Shown here: positions 3,175 through 49,370 of the stretch, in pieces
How positions within the stretch are numbered: the first letter of the stretch is position 1
Layout: each line of letters opens with the position of its first letter
Assembly: GCF_015999305.1 (NCBI RefSeq)
Contig: NZ_JAEAGP010000001.1
Span: forward strand, 1,984,001-2,048,000
Reading direction: 5' to 3'
Length of the DNA: 64,000 bases
Origin: Erythrobacter sp. YJ-T3-07
Lineage (GTDB): Bacteria; Pseudomonadota; Alphaproteobacteria; Sphingomonadales; Sphingomonadaceae
Position numbers and translations under genes: made by a program
The notes under the pieces: model-generated
Seen by the model: only the letters and a program-made list of their open reading frames with translations
What the model was told of the DNA's origin: nothing
Database searches by the model: none

Positions 3175-4851
3175 CTAGCCTGCGGTGTTGGCCGCAGCCA
3201 GCGCCTCCGCAATCAGCTTGCGGGTATTCTCGACCCCGTAGAGCGCGATGAAGCTGCCCATGCGCGGCCCCTGTTCGGAGCCGAGCAGGGTCTCGTACAA
3301 CGCCTTGAACCAGTCGCGCAGATTGTCGAACCCGAACTCCTCGCGCTTGCCGGTTTCGTAAACGATCGTCTGCAGGTCTTCCGCGCTCGTATCCGCAGAC
3401 ACCTGCGACAATTCGCCGTCGAGCGCGGCCAGTGCGGAGGCTTCGTTGGGCGTAGGCGCCCGGCGGTTGAGCGTCGGGGCGACGAAATCGCGGTTATAGG
3501 CGAGCGCGGTGGTCACCAGCCCGTCCAGCTCCGGGTGCTTCGCCGGATCGGGATCCTCGATGTAATTGCCGAGGTAAGACCATACCTGCTCGCGGGTCGC
3601 GGTTGCCCCCATCACGCCGACCAGGTTGAGCAGCAGGCCGTAGGTCACCGGCAGGCTGTCGCCCGCACCCGGTGCTTCCTCTGCCTCGTATCCGCCATTG
3701 GCACGCAGCAGGTGCCACGCGGGATTGCCCAGCTGCTTGTCGAGTGCCTGCTCGGGCAGACGCTCGCGGAACTGCCAGTAATCGTCGACCGCGCGCGGGA
3801 TCACGCCGACATGCAGCTGCTTGGCGCTCTTGGGATTGGGGAAGATATAGAAGCCCAGCGATTCCTCACTGCCATAGGTCAGCCATTCGTCGATCGTCAG
3901 CCCGTTGCCCTTGGATTTGGAGATCTTCTCGCCCTTCTCGTCGAGGAACAGCTCGTAGATCAGGCCTTCGGGCTTGCGACCGCCCAGCACCTTGGCGATC
4001 TTGCCCGACTGGATGCCGGTATCGGTCAGATCCTTGCCGTACATTTCATAGTCGACGCCCAGCGCCACCCAGCGCATCGCGAAATCGACCTTCCATTGCA
4101 GCTTGGCCTGCCCGCCCAGCGCGGACTGTTCGACGACCGTGCCGTCTTCATCCGTGAAGCGGATCGTCCCCGCTTGGGCATCGATCACCTCGACCGGAAC
4201 CTGCAGCACGCGGCCCGTCACCGGGCTGATCGGCATGATCGGCGAATAGGTCGCCGCACGCTCCGCCCGCAGGGTCGGCAGCATGATGTCGAGGATCGCC
4301 TGGTTATGCGCGAGCACCTTCTTGAGCGCTTCGTCGAACACGCCGGTGTCGTACTGGGTGTGGCTGGCGATGAATTCGTAATCGAACCCGAACCGGTCGA
4401 GGAATTCGCGCAGCTTCGCGTTGTTGTGCGCAGCAAAGCTGTCGTGATCGGTGCCGAAGGGGTTGGGGATGCGGCTCAGCGGCTTGTGCAGATTGTCCTG
4501 CAGCAGCTGCGCGTTGGGCACGTTGTCGGGCACCTTGCGCAGGCCGTCCATATCGTCGCTGAAGGCGACGAGGCGCGTCTTGCCGTCTTCCGGCTTCGCG
4601 CCGATCAGCGCCTCGAACGCGCGGCGGACCAGCGTGGTCCGCAGCACTTCCTGAAACGTGCCGATATGCGGCAGGCCCGAGGGGCCATAGCCGGTCTCGA
4701 ACAGCACCGGCTCGCCGCCAGGCTTCGTTCCGTCGGGATAGCGCTTGAGCAGACGCTGCGCCTCCTGGAACGGCCAGGCCTTGGACACGCGGGCGGCTTC
4801 GATCAGATCTTGCATGCTCATGGCAGCAGCCTGTTGCGCAGGCTCCCCCAT
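3175..4851 (-). CDS. lysK: Lysyl-tRNA synthetase, class I (archaeal type)
   Basis: 558 residues. Charges tRNA(Lys) with lysine in the cytoplasm. The Rossmann catalytic domain shows the HIGH-equivalent HIGT (GPSGLPHIGTF) near the N-terminus and a KMSKS-equivalent KISKSKGNG in the middle; the rest is the helical anticodon-binding region of class I LysRS. This type is typical of archaea and of many alphaproteobacteria, replacing the usual class II enzyme. The frame stays open upstream to 4977 but that part overlaps the next gene; I prefer the ATG at 4851, with 4821 (MSMQDL) as an alternative. Confidence 0.93.
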   Translation of the reverse strand: MGEPAQQAAAMSMQDLIEAARVSKAWPFQEAQRLLKRYPDGTKPGGEPVLFETGYGPSGLPHIGTFQEVLRTTLVRRAFEALIGAKPEDGKTRLVAFSDDMDGLRKVPDNVPNAQLLQDNLHKPLSRIPNPFGTDHDSFAAHNNAKLREFLDRFGFDYEFIASHTQYDTGVFDEALKKVLAHNQAILDIMLPTLRAERAATYSPIMPISPVTGRVLQVPVEVIDAQAGTIRFTDEDGTVVEQSALGGQAKLQWKVDFAMRWVALGVDYEMYGKDLTDTGIQSGKIAKVLGGRKPEGLIYELFLDEKGEKISKSKGNGLTIDEWLTYGSEESLGFYIFPNPKSAKQLHVGVIPRAVDDYWQFRERLPEQALDKQLGNPAWHLLRANGGYEAEEAPGAGDSLPVTYGLLLNLVGVMGATATREQVWSYLGNYIEDPDPAKHPELDGLVTTALAYNRDFVAPTLNRRAPTPNEASALAALDGELSQVSADTSAEDLQTIVYETGKREEFGFDNLRDWFKALYETLLGSEQGPRMGSFIALYGVENTRKLIAEALAAANTAG

Positions 4852-4897
4852 GTTGCAAGCGCGAATGGCCGGAGCGGCGCCGCCCCGGCCCTTCGCA

Positions 4898-5269
4898 TCA
4901 GTCGTAGTTGACCACCTCGAACTCGATCCCGTCCCAGTCGAAGAAGTAGAACCGGCGACCCGGCTCGTAGTCGGCATGGTTGAAGGGTTCGAGCCCGTGG
5001 CGCTTCACCACTTCCTCAGCCGCGTCGAGATCATCGACCACGAAGGCGATGTGGTTGAGCGGATGGCCCTTGGCGAAATTGCCGGTCACGTGCTCACCGG
5101 TGTAAAGCGCCACATAATCGACCTCGCCCCCGACATGGATCGTGTGGCCATTGTTGAGCGATGGCCCCTCCCACCGCTTGTGCCAGCCGAGCAGATCGAC
5201 CAGCAGCGCGGTGCTGCGCTCAAGATCCGTGACGGAAATATTGGCGTGTTCGAGATAGCCCCTGGGCAT
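4898..5269 (-). CDS. VOC (glyoxalase-like) family protein, putative SoxR target
   Basis: 123 residues, one vicinal-oxygen-chelate domain of two beta-alpha-beta-beta-beta modules. Candidate metal ligands are H8 (EHANIS), the HIAF histidine of the third strand (PLNHIAFVV) and the final E (GIEFEVVNYD), the usual H/H/E pattern. Likely a lyase, dioxygenase or resistance protein acting on a small electrophile. The start is fixed by an excellent ribosome binding site (AAGGAGAACAGCGATG). It is divergent from SoxR with a SoxR box between, so redox-cycling compounds may induce it. Confidence 0.85.
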   Translation of the reverse strand: MPRGYLEHANISVTDLERSTALLVDLLGWHKRWEGPSLNNGHTIHVGGEVDYVALYTGEHVTGNFAKGHPLNHIAFVVDDLDAAEEVVKRHGLEPFNHADYEPGRRFYFFDWDGIEFEVVNYD

Positions 5270-5334
5270 CGCTGTTCTCCTTGATTGAGCGAGGCCGGAT
5301 CGGCCCCGCGACTGCGATGCACGCATCAATGCAA

Positions 5335-5352
5335 CCTCAACCTCACTTGAGG
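5335..5352. promoter_or_regulatory. SoxR box
   Basis: CCTCAACCTCACTTGAGG matches the enterobacterial SoxR operator CCTCAAGTTAACTTGAGG at the outer positions of both half-sites (CCTCAA and CTTGAGG). It sits 31 bases before soxR and 65 bases before the VOC gene. Read toward the VOC gene it lies within a possible promoter: -35 TTGACC (5356-5351), a 19-bp spacer as usual for MerR-family promoters, and a poor -10 CATTGA (5331-5326). Confidence 0.8.
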
Positions 5353-5383
5353 TCAAGCATCAATGTGCCTATCGTCGTGATCG

Positions 5384-5824
5384 ATGAAAGCGAACGATCT
5401 CCTGCCCATTGGCGAACTGGCCCGTCGCACCGGGCTCAGCGTGTCGGCCATCCGCTATTACGAGAGCAAGGGACTGATCGAACCGCACCGCACCGGCGGC
5501 AACCAGCGGCGTTTCCTGCGCTCCGACATTCGCCGGCTCAGCTTCATCCTGATCGCGCAGCGGCTGGGCCTGTCGCTGGGTGAGATTGAGGCGCAGCTCG
5601 CCCGCCTGCCCCACGGTCGCACGCCCAATGCGCGCGACTGGAGCGCGATCAGCCGCGCGATCCGCGACCAGCTGGATGCACGAATCGCGGAACTGGAGCG
5701 CGCGCGGCAAAACCTTGACGGCTGCATCGGCTGCGGATGTCTGAGCCTGAAGCGCTGCGCGCTCTACAACCCGCAAGACAGGCTCGCCGAGGAAGGCCCG
5801 GGGCCTAGAACCGTGTTCGGCTAG
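5384..5824 (+). CDS. soxR: Redox-sensitive transcriptional activator SoxR
   Basis: 146 residues, MerR family. An N-terminal winged helix (PIGELARRTGLSVSAIRYYE) is followed by a dimerisation helix and a [2Fe-2S] cluster loop with cysteines at C114, C117, C119 and C125 (CIGCGCLSLKRC), the SoxR signature C-x2-C-x-C-x5-C. Oxidation of the cluster by redox-cycling drugs or NO activates target promoters. No soxS is present; as in other non-enteric bacteria it probably acts directly on targets such as the divergent VOC gene. Overlaps the phosphatase gene by 4 bases at its 3' end. Confidence 0.93.
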   Translation: MKANDLLPIGELARRTGLSVSAIRYYESKGLIEPHRTGGNQRRFLRSDIRRLSFILIAQRLGLSLGEIEAQLARLPHGRTPNARDWSAISRAIRDQLDARIAELERARQNLDGCIGCGCLSLKRCALYNPQDRLAEEGPGPRTVFG

Positions 5825-43238: not shown

Positions 43239-43636
43239 TCATCGGTTTCGGATCGGACCTGTGCAATATCGAGCGGATCCAGAACTCGCTCGATCGCTAT
43301 GGCGAGCGGTTCGAGAACCGCGTTTTCACCGAAAAGGAACGCGCCAAGGCGCGGCGGCGCCCATTCACAATCGCGGGCACCTACGCCAAGCGGTTCGCCG
43401 CCAAGGAGGCATTCTCCAAGGCGGTGGGCACCGGATTTCGCCAGGGCGTGTTCATGAAGGACATCGGCGTGGTTAACGCACCCTCGGGCGCGCCCACTCT
43501 CGAACTGGCACATGGCGCTGCCGAGGCGCTTGCGAAAATAACCCCGGCGGGCCATGTGGCACGCGTTCACCTGACCCTCACGGACGATCATCCATGGGCA
43601 CAGGCTCTGGTGATGATCGAGGCCCTTCCCGAATGA
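43235..43636 (+). CDS. acpS: Holo-[acyl-carrier-protein] synthase
   Basis: 133 residues. Transfers 4'-phosphopantetheine from CoA to acyl carrier protein. Mg ligands D8 ([12 protein letters not shown]) and E58 ([11 protein letters not shown]) are present. ATGA overlaps both neighbours. Confidence 0.95.
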
Positions 43637-44532
43637 GCAACCTGACCAGCATGAGCAAAAAAGACACCGCACCCAAATCCGGCGAGGACGAGAAGGTCAA
43701 CTGGTTCGCCGAATTCCGCGGGCTGGCGCTGATGCTGCTCGCGGTACTGGCGTTTCACAGCTTCGTCGCGAAGCCGTTCTTCATCCCCTCGACCAGCATG
43801 ATGCCCAACCTGCTGGTGGGCGACCAGCTGATCGTCAGCCGCTATCCTTACGGCTATAACTGGTCTTCGGTGACCTTCCACATGCTGCCGCGCGGCAACT
43901 GGCGCATTTTCGGCGGGACGCCGGAATATGGCGACATCGTCATCCCGACCCATCCGCAGCGCAGCGAAGACTACATCAAGCGCGTGGTCGCGCTGCCGGG
44001 TGACCGGATCGCGGTGAAGAACGGGCAGATCATCCTCAATGGCAAGCCTGTGCCGCAGAAGGTCGAGCCTGCGATGCTGCTGCCGATCGATCTCAATTCG
44101 CCCTGCCAGGGCCCCGGCTTCACCACCGTCACCGGCCCCGACGGCACCCGCAAGTGCCGCGTTCCGGTCGAACGCGAGACGATGCCCAACGGTGCGAGCT
44201 ACCTGATCATCGACGCGCTGCCCGACCAGCCGCTCGACAATTACCCTGAGATTCAGGTGCCCGACGATGCGGTGTTCGTGATGGGCGACAACCGCGATGC
44301 CTCGGCCGACAGCCGCGCCTCGATCGCCAATCAGGGCCTGGGTGGACCCGTCCCGCTCGCCAATATCGGCGGCCGCGCGGAGTTCATCACCTATTCGCTG
44401 GACGGTTCGGCAAGCTGGAATCCGTTCACCTGGTTCGGCGCGATGCGCGGCGACCGGGCGTTCACCACGCTGCGCCCGACCAAGTCAGATGACGCCGCCA
44501 AGGCCGTCGAAGACACCGGCAAGGGCGTCTGA
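43633..44532 (+). CDS. lepB: Signal peptidase I
   Basis: 299 residues. Membrane-anchored Ser/Lys protease that cleaves signal peptides of exported proteins. One N-terminal helix ([19 protein letters not shown]), catalytic S55 in [12 protein letters not shown] and K116 in [12 protein letters not shown], and [12 protein letters not shown] (box E). Starts within the acpS stop. Confidence 0.95.
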
Positions 44533-46943: not shown

Positions 46944-47410
46944 GGGAGAGTGCCGCCGGTTTGGCCGAGACGCTGCCCGACGGGGGCGCGTTGATCGGGC
47001 TGGACCTTGGCACCAAGACCATCGGCATCGCGGTGTGCGATGCGGGCTGGCGCTTCGCCTCCGCACTCAAGACATTGCCGCGCGGCAAGTTCGGGCGTGA
47101 TCGCGACGAGCTGCGCAAGCTGATCGAGGCGCGCAACATTCGCGGGATCGTAATCGGCCTGCCGCGCAACATGGATGGCAGCGAAGGCCCGCGCGCGCAG
47201 GCGAGCCGCGCCTATGCCCGCAATCTTGCCGAAGCCTTTAGCCTGCCGGTGCTGCTGTGGGACGAACGCTGGTCGACCAAGAGCGCCGAGGACGCGATGA
47301 TCGGGCTCGATGTCAGTCGCCGCAAGCGGGCCGAGCGGATCGATGCCGAGGCCGCGACGATCATCCTGCAGGGGGCGATCGATGCGGCGACGGGATCGCC
47401 GCTACTCTGA
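46922..47410 (+). CDS. ruvX: Holliday junction resolvase-like protein RuvX (YqgF)
   Basis: 162 residues, RNase H fold. GLDLGTKTIGIAVCD carries the first catalytic Asp; GIVIGLPRNMDGSEGPRA, LLWDERWSTKSAE and IDAEAATIIL follow. Required for pre-16S rRNA processing in bacteria. Ends with a 9-base overlap with the convergent cupin-like gene. Confidence 0.92.
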   Translation: MDSRELVGESAAGLAETLPDGGALIGLDLGTKTIGIAVCDAGWRFASALKTLPRGKFGRDRDELRKLIEARNIRGIVIGLPRNMDGSEGPRAQASRAYARNLAEAFSLPVLLWDERWSTKSAEDAMIGLDVSRRKRAERIDAEAATIILQGAIDAATGSPLL

Positions 47411-48187
47411 CCGGATCATTGCACTCGCCACCCGCCGCATCGCAGCACTGGGGTGATGTGTCGTAAAATGCTGCGCACAATGTCTCGCATCCTCCCCGCC
47501 CAGCGCCACACCCAGCCTTAGCAAGACCTCGTTCGCGCTCGCATTGAGCACGCCCGTAATCCGGCCTGCTTCGGTATCGAAACGGTACTGGTCGAACCAC
47601 CCTTGCGCGGGGTTTGCGGCGCAGATGTTGAGCGAAACGGACAAACTCTCGGGCGGATGCTGGCAATGCACGTCGCGGTGCGCACGATAATGCAGCACGC
47701 GCCCCTCGCTCAGCCGCGATCGTTCGACGAACCGCAGATCGACGTGCTCTCCGACCTCTCCCGAGACGCTCGCGTAGTCGTACTCCCAGTAATCGCTGAC
47801 GTAGCCCGGGCCGAAATAGCCGACGGTCAGGAAATCGAAATTGTGGTCGTGCGGCAGGCCGTAGACGAAACTTGCCGCGCCGCTCGCCTCAAAGGCCGGA
47901 TCGCCGCGCGCGGGCCAGATATTCGCGCGCAGGAAATATCCGTTGCGCGGCCCTGCCAGCATGAGCGCCTGCGGGCCGTAACCGCTTGCCTGATCGTCGG
48001 CACCGGCCAATAGATCGATCAGCAGATCGCCGAGGAAACGGCGATTGGCCGCCAGCCCGGCGAGCAGCGATGCGGCATGGAGCAGCGAACCCTCGTCCCC
48101 CGGATCGAAGCCGTGTTCGTCCAGCTGCGCGATGCACTCTGCGAGTGTCAGCGGGGTACAAAAGGGTGGCGTCAGCGCACGAGGCAT
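47402..48187 (-). CDS. Uncharacterised protein with cupin-like His motif (A)
   Basis: 261 residues. A helical N-terminus (SLLHAASLLAGLAANRRFLGDLLIDLL), then a beta-rich core with H113-D114-H115 in GLPHDHNFDFLTVGYFGPGY, E135 in DYWEYD, and a second His cluster (H166, H170, H174) in LHYRAHRDVHCQHPPESLSVSLN. This H-x-H...E...H layout resembles a metal-binding cupin of the dioxygenase kind. No named family could be assigned. Overlaps the upstream gene B by 16 bases, so translation is coupled, and ruvX by 9 on the other strand. Confidence 0.72.
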   Translation of the reverse strand: MPRALTPPFCTPLTLAECIAQLDEHGFDPGDEGSLLHAASLLAGLAANRRFLGDLLIDLLAGADDQASGYGPQALMLAGPRNGYFLRANIWPARGDPAFEASGAASFVYGLPHDHNFDFLTVGYFGPGYVSDYWEYDYASVSGEVGEHVDLRFVERSRLSEGRVLHYRAHRDVHCQHPPESLSVSLNICAANPAQGWFDQYRFDTEAGRITGVLNASANEVLLRLGVALGGEDARHCAQHFTTHHPSAAMRRVASAMIRSE

Positions 48188-49137
48188 CGGCTCTCCCGCA
48201 ACTTGGCAAGCTGTGGATAACTTGTGCATAGCCTGTGACGAAGTGCAGCGGCCTCGCGCGCCAGCGGATCGCTGGCACACTCCGCAATCGCGCACAGAGC
48301 CGCGAATCCACTGGCTGTGTCGAGCGCGAGTGCCTGTCGCAGCGCCTGCCACCGGGCTCCCTCTCCCGCTTGTCCACAGCCCCCTTCCCCGCAGGCATAG
48401 CGCGCGAGAGCGGGCGCAGCGTCGGTTCGCCCCATCGCGCCCAGCAATGCAGCAGCCAGTTCCGAGCGCCCGTCTGCGGCGCTCGGCGAGGCGCGGTGGA
48501 CGATCTGCCCGGTTGCCAGCTCCACCTCTCGCGTCGCGCGCGAATGGGCGGGCTCGCGTGCGACCCGCAGCAACACCAGGGGCGCATCCAGAGCGGTAAC
48601 GGCGCGGGAATGATCGGCATCGCCGGTCAGAACCGTGCCGGGCGCAAGGCGAAGTTCTTGCGCGACAGGCGGCGCACCGTCGCGCCGTGTGTAACGGACC
48701 GCTGCCCCCTGCCCTGCCAGCACCACCTCCCGCCGATCGCAATCGGAAAACGCGATGGTGCGCGGCGCTCTCGCAGCATCCGGCTCGACCAGAACAAGCG
48801 CCAGCGTCACCGACCCGTCGCGGTGGATGTGGACGATCCCCTGCCCTCCGGCGTAGCTGTGCCGAAAGGGCAATTGCGCCAGTGGCTGGTCACGCCAGGC
48901 GGCCAGCATGGTCGCGATGAACTGTGCAACGAACTCCTGCGCGCCGTCGTCATCGATCAGGGCTCGCAATGCGCCGCAGCGCGCGAAATCACCGGTGTCT
49001 CGCAAGGTCCGGCAATCGGCCAGAACCCGCTCGACCTGTGGCCGCGCCTGCCACTCGGCCAGCGCGGCCAGCACGCGATCCTGCGCCGCGGCCTGGGCAC
49101 CGCGATCGCGCGCAAAATCGCGCAGCTGCGGATCCAC
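48172..49137 (-). CDS. Uncharacterised protein with cupin-like motif (B)
   Basis: About 321 residues from a GTG at 49137 chosen for the GAAGG ribosome binding site 5 bases upstream, 20 bases after the peptide gene. No ATG is near the start. Domains: helical N-terminus (to about 90), a beta-rich core with H103-I-H105 (GQGIVHIHRDGSVTLALVL) and a later H176 (TGDADHSRAV), like cupin motifs 1 and 2, then a helical Ala/Arg-rich C-terminal third with several Cys (CGEGGCG). A GTG at 49143 is an alternative start. Function unknown. Confidence 0.65.
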   Translation of the reverse strand: MDPQLRDFARDRGAQAAAQDRVLAALAEWQARPQVERVLADCRTLRDTGDFARCGALRALIDDDGAQEFVAQFIATMLAAWRDQPLAQLPFRHSYAGGQGIVHIHRDGSVTLALVLVEPDAARAPRTIAFSDCDRREVVLAGQGAAVRYTRRDGAPPVAQELRLAPGTVLTGDADHSRAVTALDAPLVLLRVAREPAHSRATREVELATGQIVHRASPSAADGRSELAAALLGAMGRTDAAPALARYACGEGGCGQAGEGARWQALRQALALDTASGFAALCAIAECASDPLAREAAALRHRLCTSYPQLAKLRESRCLVR

Positions 49138-49157
49138 CTGCACCTTCGGCGGGCCGC

Positions 49158-49328
49158 CTAGAACAGCTTGCCCGGCCCATCGGGCGGGAAGGTTTCGTAG
49201 AGGTAGACCATCAGGATCACGACCCGGTCGTCGGTCGCCGCGCTGGCCAGATCGGACAGGCTTCCGATCAGGCCGGGCGCGTCGATCAGGCCCGGCAGGC
49301 TGTCGAGAGAAAGCTTGGGCAGGTTCAT
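49158..49328 (-). CDS. 56-residue peptide gene upstream of the cupin-like pair
   Basis: Encodes MNLPKLSLDSLPGLIDAPGL followed by IGSLSDLASAATDDRVVILM and VYLYETFPPDGPGKLF. Ribosome binding site GGGAG lies 8 bases before the ATG. The N-terminal half is Leu/Pro/Gly-rich and amphipathic; the C-terminal half is a hydrophobic strand DDRVVILMVYLYE then Pro/Gly. No Cys, no signal peptide. It is first in the three-gene unit with A and B. Could be a precursor peptide, a small regulatory protein, or a subunit. Not long enough for most automated calls, but codon use and spacing support it. Confidence 0.72.
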   Translation of the reverse strand: MNLPKLSLDSLPGLIDAPGLIGSLSDLASAATDDRVVILMVYLYETFPPDGPGKLF

Positions 49329-49350
49329 CGATGTTGCTCCCTTGCATGGC

Positions 49351-49370
49351 GCGCGGCTCCCCTGCCGCGC
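49351..49370 (-). promoter_or_regulatory. Leader hairpin upstream of the peptide gene
   Basis: A 7-bp GC stem (GCGCGGC/GCCGCGC) with a 6-base loop (AGGGGA on the minus strand) lies 22 bases before the start codon. The A/G-rich loop resembles a ribosome binding site or a protein-binding hairpin. Upstream (about 49410) TTTAAT resembles a -10 without a convincing -35. Confidence 0.4.

Follow-up and report, generated by a model that had tools for sequence, protein, structure and literature searches.

A conserved peptide gene beside two cupin-like proteins in Erythrobacter and its relatives: a candidate cassette for a modified peptide

What does a 56-residue peptide do beside two proteins that match no known family? 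The question is raised by a 64,000-nucleotide stretch of the genome of Erythrobacter sp. YJ-T3-07 (contig NZ_JAEAGP010000001.1, positions 1,984,001 to 2,048,000; hereafter the window), in which three genes follow one another on the minus strand: a peptide gene (P0003, 56 residues; 49158..49328), gene B (323 residues; 48172..49143) and gene C (261 residues; 47402..48187). A preliminary description, made from the letters of the DNA, had offered two guesses, a peptide modified by oxidation or a ligand-sensing pair with a small partner. We consider it probable that the unit is a cassette of the type that makes ribosomally synthesized and post-translationally modified peptides (RiPPs), in which the 56-residue peptide would be the precursor, gene C would encode a three-histidine cupin catalyst and gene B a partner devoid of metal ligands.

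Conservation of the three-gene unit

Gene C was found in at least 104 of the 298 sampled genomes of the family, representing 45 of 96 genera, and a genome scan yielded 329 gene C loci. Two sets of loci were used: the best 80 of these 329 from named organisms, a choice that leans towards close relatives, and 30 loci from the 298-genome family sample, which overlap the 80 and include the window's own locus. Presence of the peptide beside the pair was scored by tblastn (E ≤ 0.01). The peptide was recovered at 77/80 named loci and at 29/30 loci of the second set, and, counting only the named relatives with upstream DNA, at 77/78; the question of whether it co-occurs with the homologous pair, raised by the preliminary description, can thus be answered positively. 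Four loci gave no peptide match. At L079 and L096 the contig begins within gene B, and at L003 and L065 gene B is not intact. L003/L195 (G162) and L065 have lost part of the unit naturally, gene B being truncated or replaced, the peptide gone and gene C intact; at L003, no peptide was found in the 16 kb upstream of gene C, where residues 244–321 are all that is left of gene B.

Median ratios of non-synonymous to synonymous changes (pN/pS) over 41 pairs of relatives, which are not independent of one another, were 0.37 for the peptide, 0.46 for gene B and 0.30 for gene C. Judged from these sequences, the peptide gene is under purifying selection. All of the 84 distinct peptides have P12 and G22; P4 and D34 are each kept in 83 of them and Y44 in 82. 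The window's peptide divides into a leader-like block (residues 1–23), a variable linker (24–32), a core-like block (33–45; DDRVVILMVYLYE) and a variable tail, and in the Erythrobacteraceae both the N-terminal and the C-terminal blocks are conserved around the variable linker. The tblastn recovery, the pN/pS values and the density control of open reading frames (ORFs) given below rule out a chance frame. Sequence comparison shows a genuine, conserved unit of three genes, with a short encoded peptide conserved next to gene B and gene C, as in a RiPP cassette.

Two cupin paralogues, one with a predicted metal site

The preliminary description had noted cupin-like metal-binding histidines in both larger proteins and had taken both for possible metalloenzymes. 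We compared the proteins by profile and by predicted structure, and both are cupins in the models. In gene C, H113 and H115 are kept in 74/74 close and 25/25 diverse sequences, and H174 in 74/74 and 24/25. Its predicted structure has a cupin fold of the cysteine dioxygenase (CDO) type, N-terminal helices included, followed by C-terminal helices, and its profile aligns collinearly with that of CDO over 162 columns (E-value 0.0036). On sequence and model, gene C is a CDO-type cupin with an intact three-histidine site (H113-x-H115 and H174), and a putative peptide-modifying oxygenase. In the window's genus the protein (261 residues) is about 40 residues shorter at its end than most relatives (about 300 residues) and has lost the last HEAT-like helices.

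Gene B, also modelled as a CDO-type cupin and carrying C-terminal HEAT-like helices (HEAT_2 scored over the cut-off in two distant gene B proteins), gives a different picture. Of the two histidines of its H-x-H, H105 is kept in only 4/73 relatives and H107 likewise in 4/73; H95 and H216 are kept in 55/73 and 56/73 of the close set, but in only 7/25 and 4/25 of the diverse set, across which no histidine of gene B is conserved. Gene B is therefore, as far as alignments and models indicate, a paralogue of gene C without conserved metal ligands; its H-x-H is not a metal site, and we rejected gene B as a metalloenzyme. Of the two possible metalloenzymes, gene C alone is likely to be one, the histidine cluster being a predicted metal site in gene C and not in gene B, which we regard as a putative partner or peptide-binding subunit.

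Neither the window's gene B, gene C nor peptide gave a Pfam or NCBIfam match over the cut-off, in line with the earlier remark that neither larger protein belongs to a nameable family. All 74 gene C proteins likewise stayed below the Pfam cut-offs; CDO_I (PF05995) is not among the six Pfam families that any of them matched at E ≤ 1, and the genome of the window, which contains gene C, has no CDO_I match. NCBIfam gave no match for six other peptides, three gene C proteins and one gene B protein, while among the peptides the Pfam scan covered that of the window. DUF693, seen in 27/74 gene C proteins (best E 0.053), and the Luciferase and OrgA matches of gene B were below the cut-off and are regarded as chance. 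No Pfam match to a RiPP recognition element (PqqD-like) was found in gene B or gene C, and the fold-search results were filled by cupins; DUF692, the family of MNIO enzymes, did not match either protein. Solved structures searched by sequence gave a best E of 0.45, and by profile gave none. In the open-access literature, a restriction that makes the evidence weak, no title or abstract start concerned this gene pair. The cassette is thus without a name in the libraries and open-access literature searched.

Related pairs, their peptides and their neighbours

In the class and phylum searches only 5–6 candidates per genome were scored with alignments, so that the genome counts are lower bounds. 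The class search matched at least 5/385 genomes and the phylum search at least 15/398, two of them outside the class, whose families gave at least 6/99 and at least 8/196 genomes. Related pairs elsewhere in the Pseudomonadota, including those on named Alteromonas and Vibrio plasmids, lie beside peptides of about 36–65 residues, which in the units outside the class are upstream or downstream of the pair. Many of these peptides combine a common leader-like N-terminus with unrelated C-termini, often rich in Val and Ile. Within the family, the peptides of second or more divergent pairs often begin with I-D-x-x-x-L-P-x-L-D-T-x-x-G and end differently, for example in ...EVGGPLCLGVVVAVLLAL. In the families of the two genomes outside the class, the peptides of L158 and L159 read MERKSVVLEDLLDDVAPTTNTTTELGIVITIAVVIL and MDLMIEAVNALGNFDVAMFDPQVLDPVFVIPIIIILTKTL. 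A second alphaproteobacterial family has the pair in at least 3/96 genomes, beside a peptide not matched by the model of the window's peptide but conserved in that group; it is 73% identical between two loci, and the third locus is cut by the contig end. Two or three tandem precursors per pair occur, as at L165, also in the families outside the class, where three peptides with a like leader have cores ending in TGWLIWYLRFFG, VGWLFWLWRKYG and YGMIWVFIWLR. The leader-like part is thus conserved and the core-like part diversified across paralogues and distant units, while within the Erythrobacteraceae both blocks are conserved. The L164 peptide (406–597) nearly repeats a stretch of itself (STLFIFAARK ... 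STAFIFAAQR), as would fit a precursor that carries two cores.

The divergent peptides were chosen by ribosome-binding site and position, which gave a candidate at 20/21 places in one survey (none at L065, and at L135 only with a TTG start). As a control, ORFs of 35–66 codons with an ATG start and a ribosome-binding site were counted upstream of gene B: they were found in 21/28 divergent units, at 7.5 times their density elsewhere in these loci. Requiring an acidic N-terminus left 17/28 units at 33 times the density, and adding a hydrophobic C-terminus, in two settings, left 15/28 and 12/28 units at 54 and 49 times; L162 and L165 have peptides downstream, and these were counted as background.

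Exporter genes of the HlyD/MacB type were identified by Pfam beside four of the loci examined (L123, L169, L170 and L178). At L123/L174, the end of gene C overlaps with an HlyD gene, after which come genes for an ATP-binding cassette (ABC) ATPase and FtsX; at L169 and L170, ABC ATPase and MacB/FtsX permease genes adjoin the unit, with HlyD in addition at L170. The Alteromonas stellipolaris plasmid pASTE61-200 has the order Yip1, HlyD, ABC ATPase (as annotated), MacB/FtsX permease, two peptides, gene B, gene C, ABC ATPase and ABC-2 permease; the peptides (38 and 41 residues) are both unannotated, and gene B and gene C were assigned by model. L192 has the peptide, gene B and gene C (by model) with genes that read as transporter-like. 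At L173, a resistance-nodulation-division (RND) pump and an HlyD-type partner lie upstream and may be unrelated. No leader-removing protease was seen in the clusters examined. In five paralogous units (L128, L134, L135, L136 and L137), a Trans_reg_C winged-helix gene follows gene C.

Several of the related loci are unusual in other respects. L191 (G1355:C1:342800-362700) packs three B–C pairs, small peptide genes and, by reading, apparently two ABC transporter sets into 20 kb. At L179, on plasmid p1-ED002 of Vibrio sp. ED002 (4195–5751), models recognise gene B (E 2.9e-5) and a shortened gene C, with an annotated 58-residue ORF downstream of the pair and a restriction-modification pair and Tn3-family genes adjoining. 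L190, on IMGVR_UViG_3300046462_000434, is the sole gene C relative among viral contigs (34% identity). To the eye, the N-terminal parts of the five winged-helix proteins resemble degenerate receiver domains.

In the window itself, the peptide gene starts with ATG behind the ribosome-binding sequence AAGGGAG (49337..49343, minus strand), and gene B and gene C overlap by 16 bases, both as first described. The 20-base gap to the next gene holds for the second in-frame GTG of gene B, whereas the first lies 14 bases from the peptide gene. A leader hairpin had also been pointed out: its 8-bp stem exists, but shuffled sequences are as stable as the leader region (z 0.31, and −1.42 to 1.37 in six relatives), so that a conserved RNA element is unsupported by folding. 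The window gave no Rfam match at the gathering score, and a promoter scan found nothing. The five proteins tested with PADLOC gave no match, and a defence-system reading was therefore rejected. The neighbours are, on one side, ruvX and DUF3089 and, on the other, two 4HBT thioesterases. When the ORFs of the 80 named loci were roughly clustered, with clusters labelled after the window's genes and not by domain scans of the relatives, a DUF3089 cluster was seen downstream, on the opposite strand, in 50/80, that of ruvX likewise in 37/80, and one thioesterase cluster upstream in 42/80. A signal-peptidase-like ORF, recognised by eye, lies farther away (43594–44532). The genome (3.3 Mb) has one match to the peptide, and its nearest named relative in the genome scan is Alteriqipengyuania abyssalis, with a gene C 93% identical.

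A candidate RiPP cassette and its rivals

CDO-type enzymes are three-histidine iron cupins that activate O2 without 2-oxoglutarate. We propose that the precursor consists of an N-terminal leader (about residues 1–23), which gene B or the B–C pair would bind, and a C-terminal core (about 33–45, DD-[IV]-rich-Y-x-Y-E). Gene B, having lost its ligands, would most likely bind the precursor or form a heterodimer with gene C. Gene C, likely an iron cupin, would activate O2 without a cosubstrate such as 2-oxoglutarate and oxidatively modify the core. The leader would then be removed, and the product exported by the neighbouring HlyD/MacB/FtsX-type genes on the Alteromonas plasmid, in two outside-class genomes and beside one Sphingomonad paralogue. 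The chromosomally fixed copy of the Erythrobacteraceae would rather make an in-house product than a weapon.

Gene C shares with the cysteine and thiol dioxygenases (CDO, 3-mercaptopropionate, mercaptosuccinate, ADO/PCO) the predicted cupin fold with its N-terminal helices, the HxH and the third histidine, but it has extra HEAT-like helices, is accompanied by a peptide gene and a paralogue lacking the metal site, and has no CDO_I match among its 74 members; the Arg of YxRxxL, which most members of the CDO set have, finds no counterpart in gene C in the profile alignment (by eye), and the window's peptide has no thiol. Sponge proteusin-type clusters have RiPP enzymes described as cupin-4 proteins. 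The pbs cluster is described as a RiPP cassette with an MNIO/DUF692 catalyst and a partner protein (PMC12257519). Like such cassettes, the unit has a small precursor, a metalloenzyme and a partner in one operon, and leader-like and variable core-like parts; unlike them, its predicted catalyst is a three-histidine CDO-type cupin and its partner the catalyst's paralogue. PbsQ/BpmG, described as a JmjC-related, cupin-like peptide hydroxylase, has as its substrate a residue that other enzymes produce (PMC12257519); it too is a cupin-fold protein acting on a RiPP precursor, whereas gene C has HxH...H and is the sole candidate catalyst in its unit.

Several observations weigh against a RiPP cassette. 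No modified product is known, no RiPP or RiPP-recognition-element model of Pfam or NCBIfam matched, and, as the preliminary description had said of transporters, neither an exporter nor a protease was recognised adjoining the window's unit by Pfam scan and neighbour clustering. The alignment of gene C with the CDO profile has a probability of only 9% despite its E-value, and the TM-scores of the predicted models are moderate. The Erythrobacteraceae core is unusually conserved for an antimicrobial, and no residue common to all cores accounts for one chemistry: Cys is found in some cores and absent from the window's peptide, which is Cys-free as first noted, so thiol oxidation is not general. 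Free thiols may nevertheless be substrates of gene C. Finally, the density criteria were set only after the peptides had been seen, and gave an upstream candidate in only 12 to 21 of the 28 divergent units.

Could the peptides instead act unmodified, as bacteriocin-like or membrane-active molecules, with gene B and gene C as accessory proteins (chaperone, immunity or export adaptor)? Gram-negative bacteriocin operons have HlyD–MacB exporters, and the peptides beside exporter genes on the Alteromonas plasmid and at L169, L170 and L123 are arranged alike, although the window's unit has no adjoining exporter and we found gene B and gene C in no described family of this kind. The tandem peptides, their hydrophobic Val/Ile/Gly-rich C-termini and the HlyD/MacB-type and, on the plasmid, ABC-2 transporter genes fit an unmodified role. 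However, the pair persists where no transporter is recognised among the neighbours; a three-histidine site complete in 74/74 close and 24/25 diverse gene C sequences would be needless for immunity or chaperoning, and we hold this explanation to be unlikely. Another rival is the sensing pair, in which gene C would sense O2 or a small molecule, gene B transmit the signal and the peptide be the effector. The winged-helix genes of the five paralogous units speak for it, as does the canonical unit with its fixed core and no exporter beside it; but tandem peptides with highly diversified C-termini and exporter genes are unexpected for a sensor's partner, and the scans made found no DNA-binding or signalling domain in gene B or gene C, which leaves sensing quite improbable.

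That the peptide is a third structural subunit of a B–C enzyme working on a small molecule would suit its two strongly conserved blocks in the Erythrobacteraceae, but hardly the paralogues, where the C-terminal half of the peptide is wholly different while gene B and gene C stay alike, nor the pairs with two to three peptides; we think this very unlikely. Of the two original guesses, modification by oxidation is the better supported, by the co-occurring peptide, the predicted metal site of gene C, the variable cores, the tandem precursors and the exporters of four cases.

The system is real, conserved and widespread, and probably a new class or subclass of RiPP. We see about even chances for the bolder form of this reading, in which the class would extend across Alpha- and Gammaproteobacteria, its maturase would be a heteromeric CDO-type cupin pair oxidising Val/Ile-rich cores without 2-oxoglutarate, and the Erythrobacteraceae copy would be fixed as a conserved peptide-derived signal or cofactor. 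The lack of an adjacent exporter, the nearly fixed core and the mostly constant place suggest that the Erythrobacteraceae product probably has a conserved cellular or signalling role. If the RiPP reading is true, a widespread class would rely on a three-histidine CDO-like cupin with a pseudo-enzyme partner, an enzyme type not tied to peptide maturation in the sources searched. Natural examples for testing are plentiful, with 329 gene C loci in one genome scan. The core that hardly varies in the Erythrobacteraceae also prompts one to ask whether aerobic marine bacteria have a cofactor or signal derived from a peptide.
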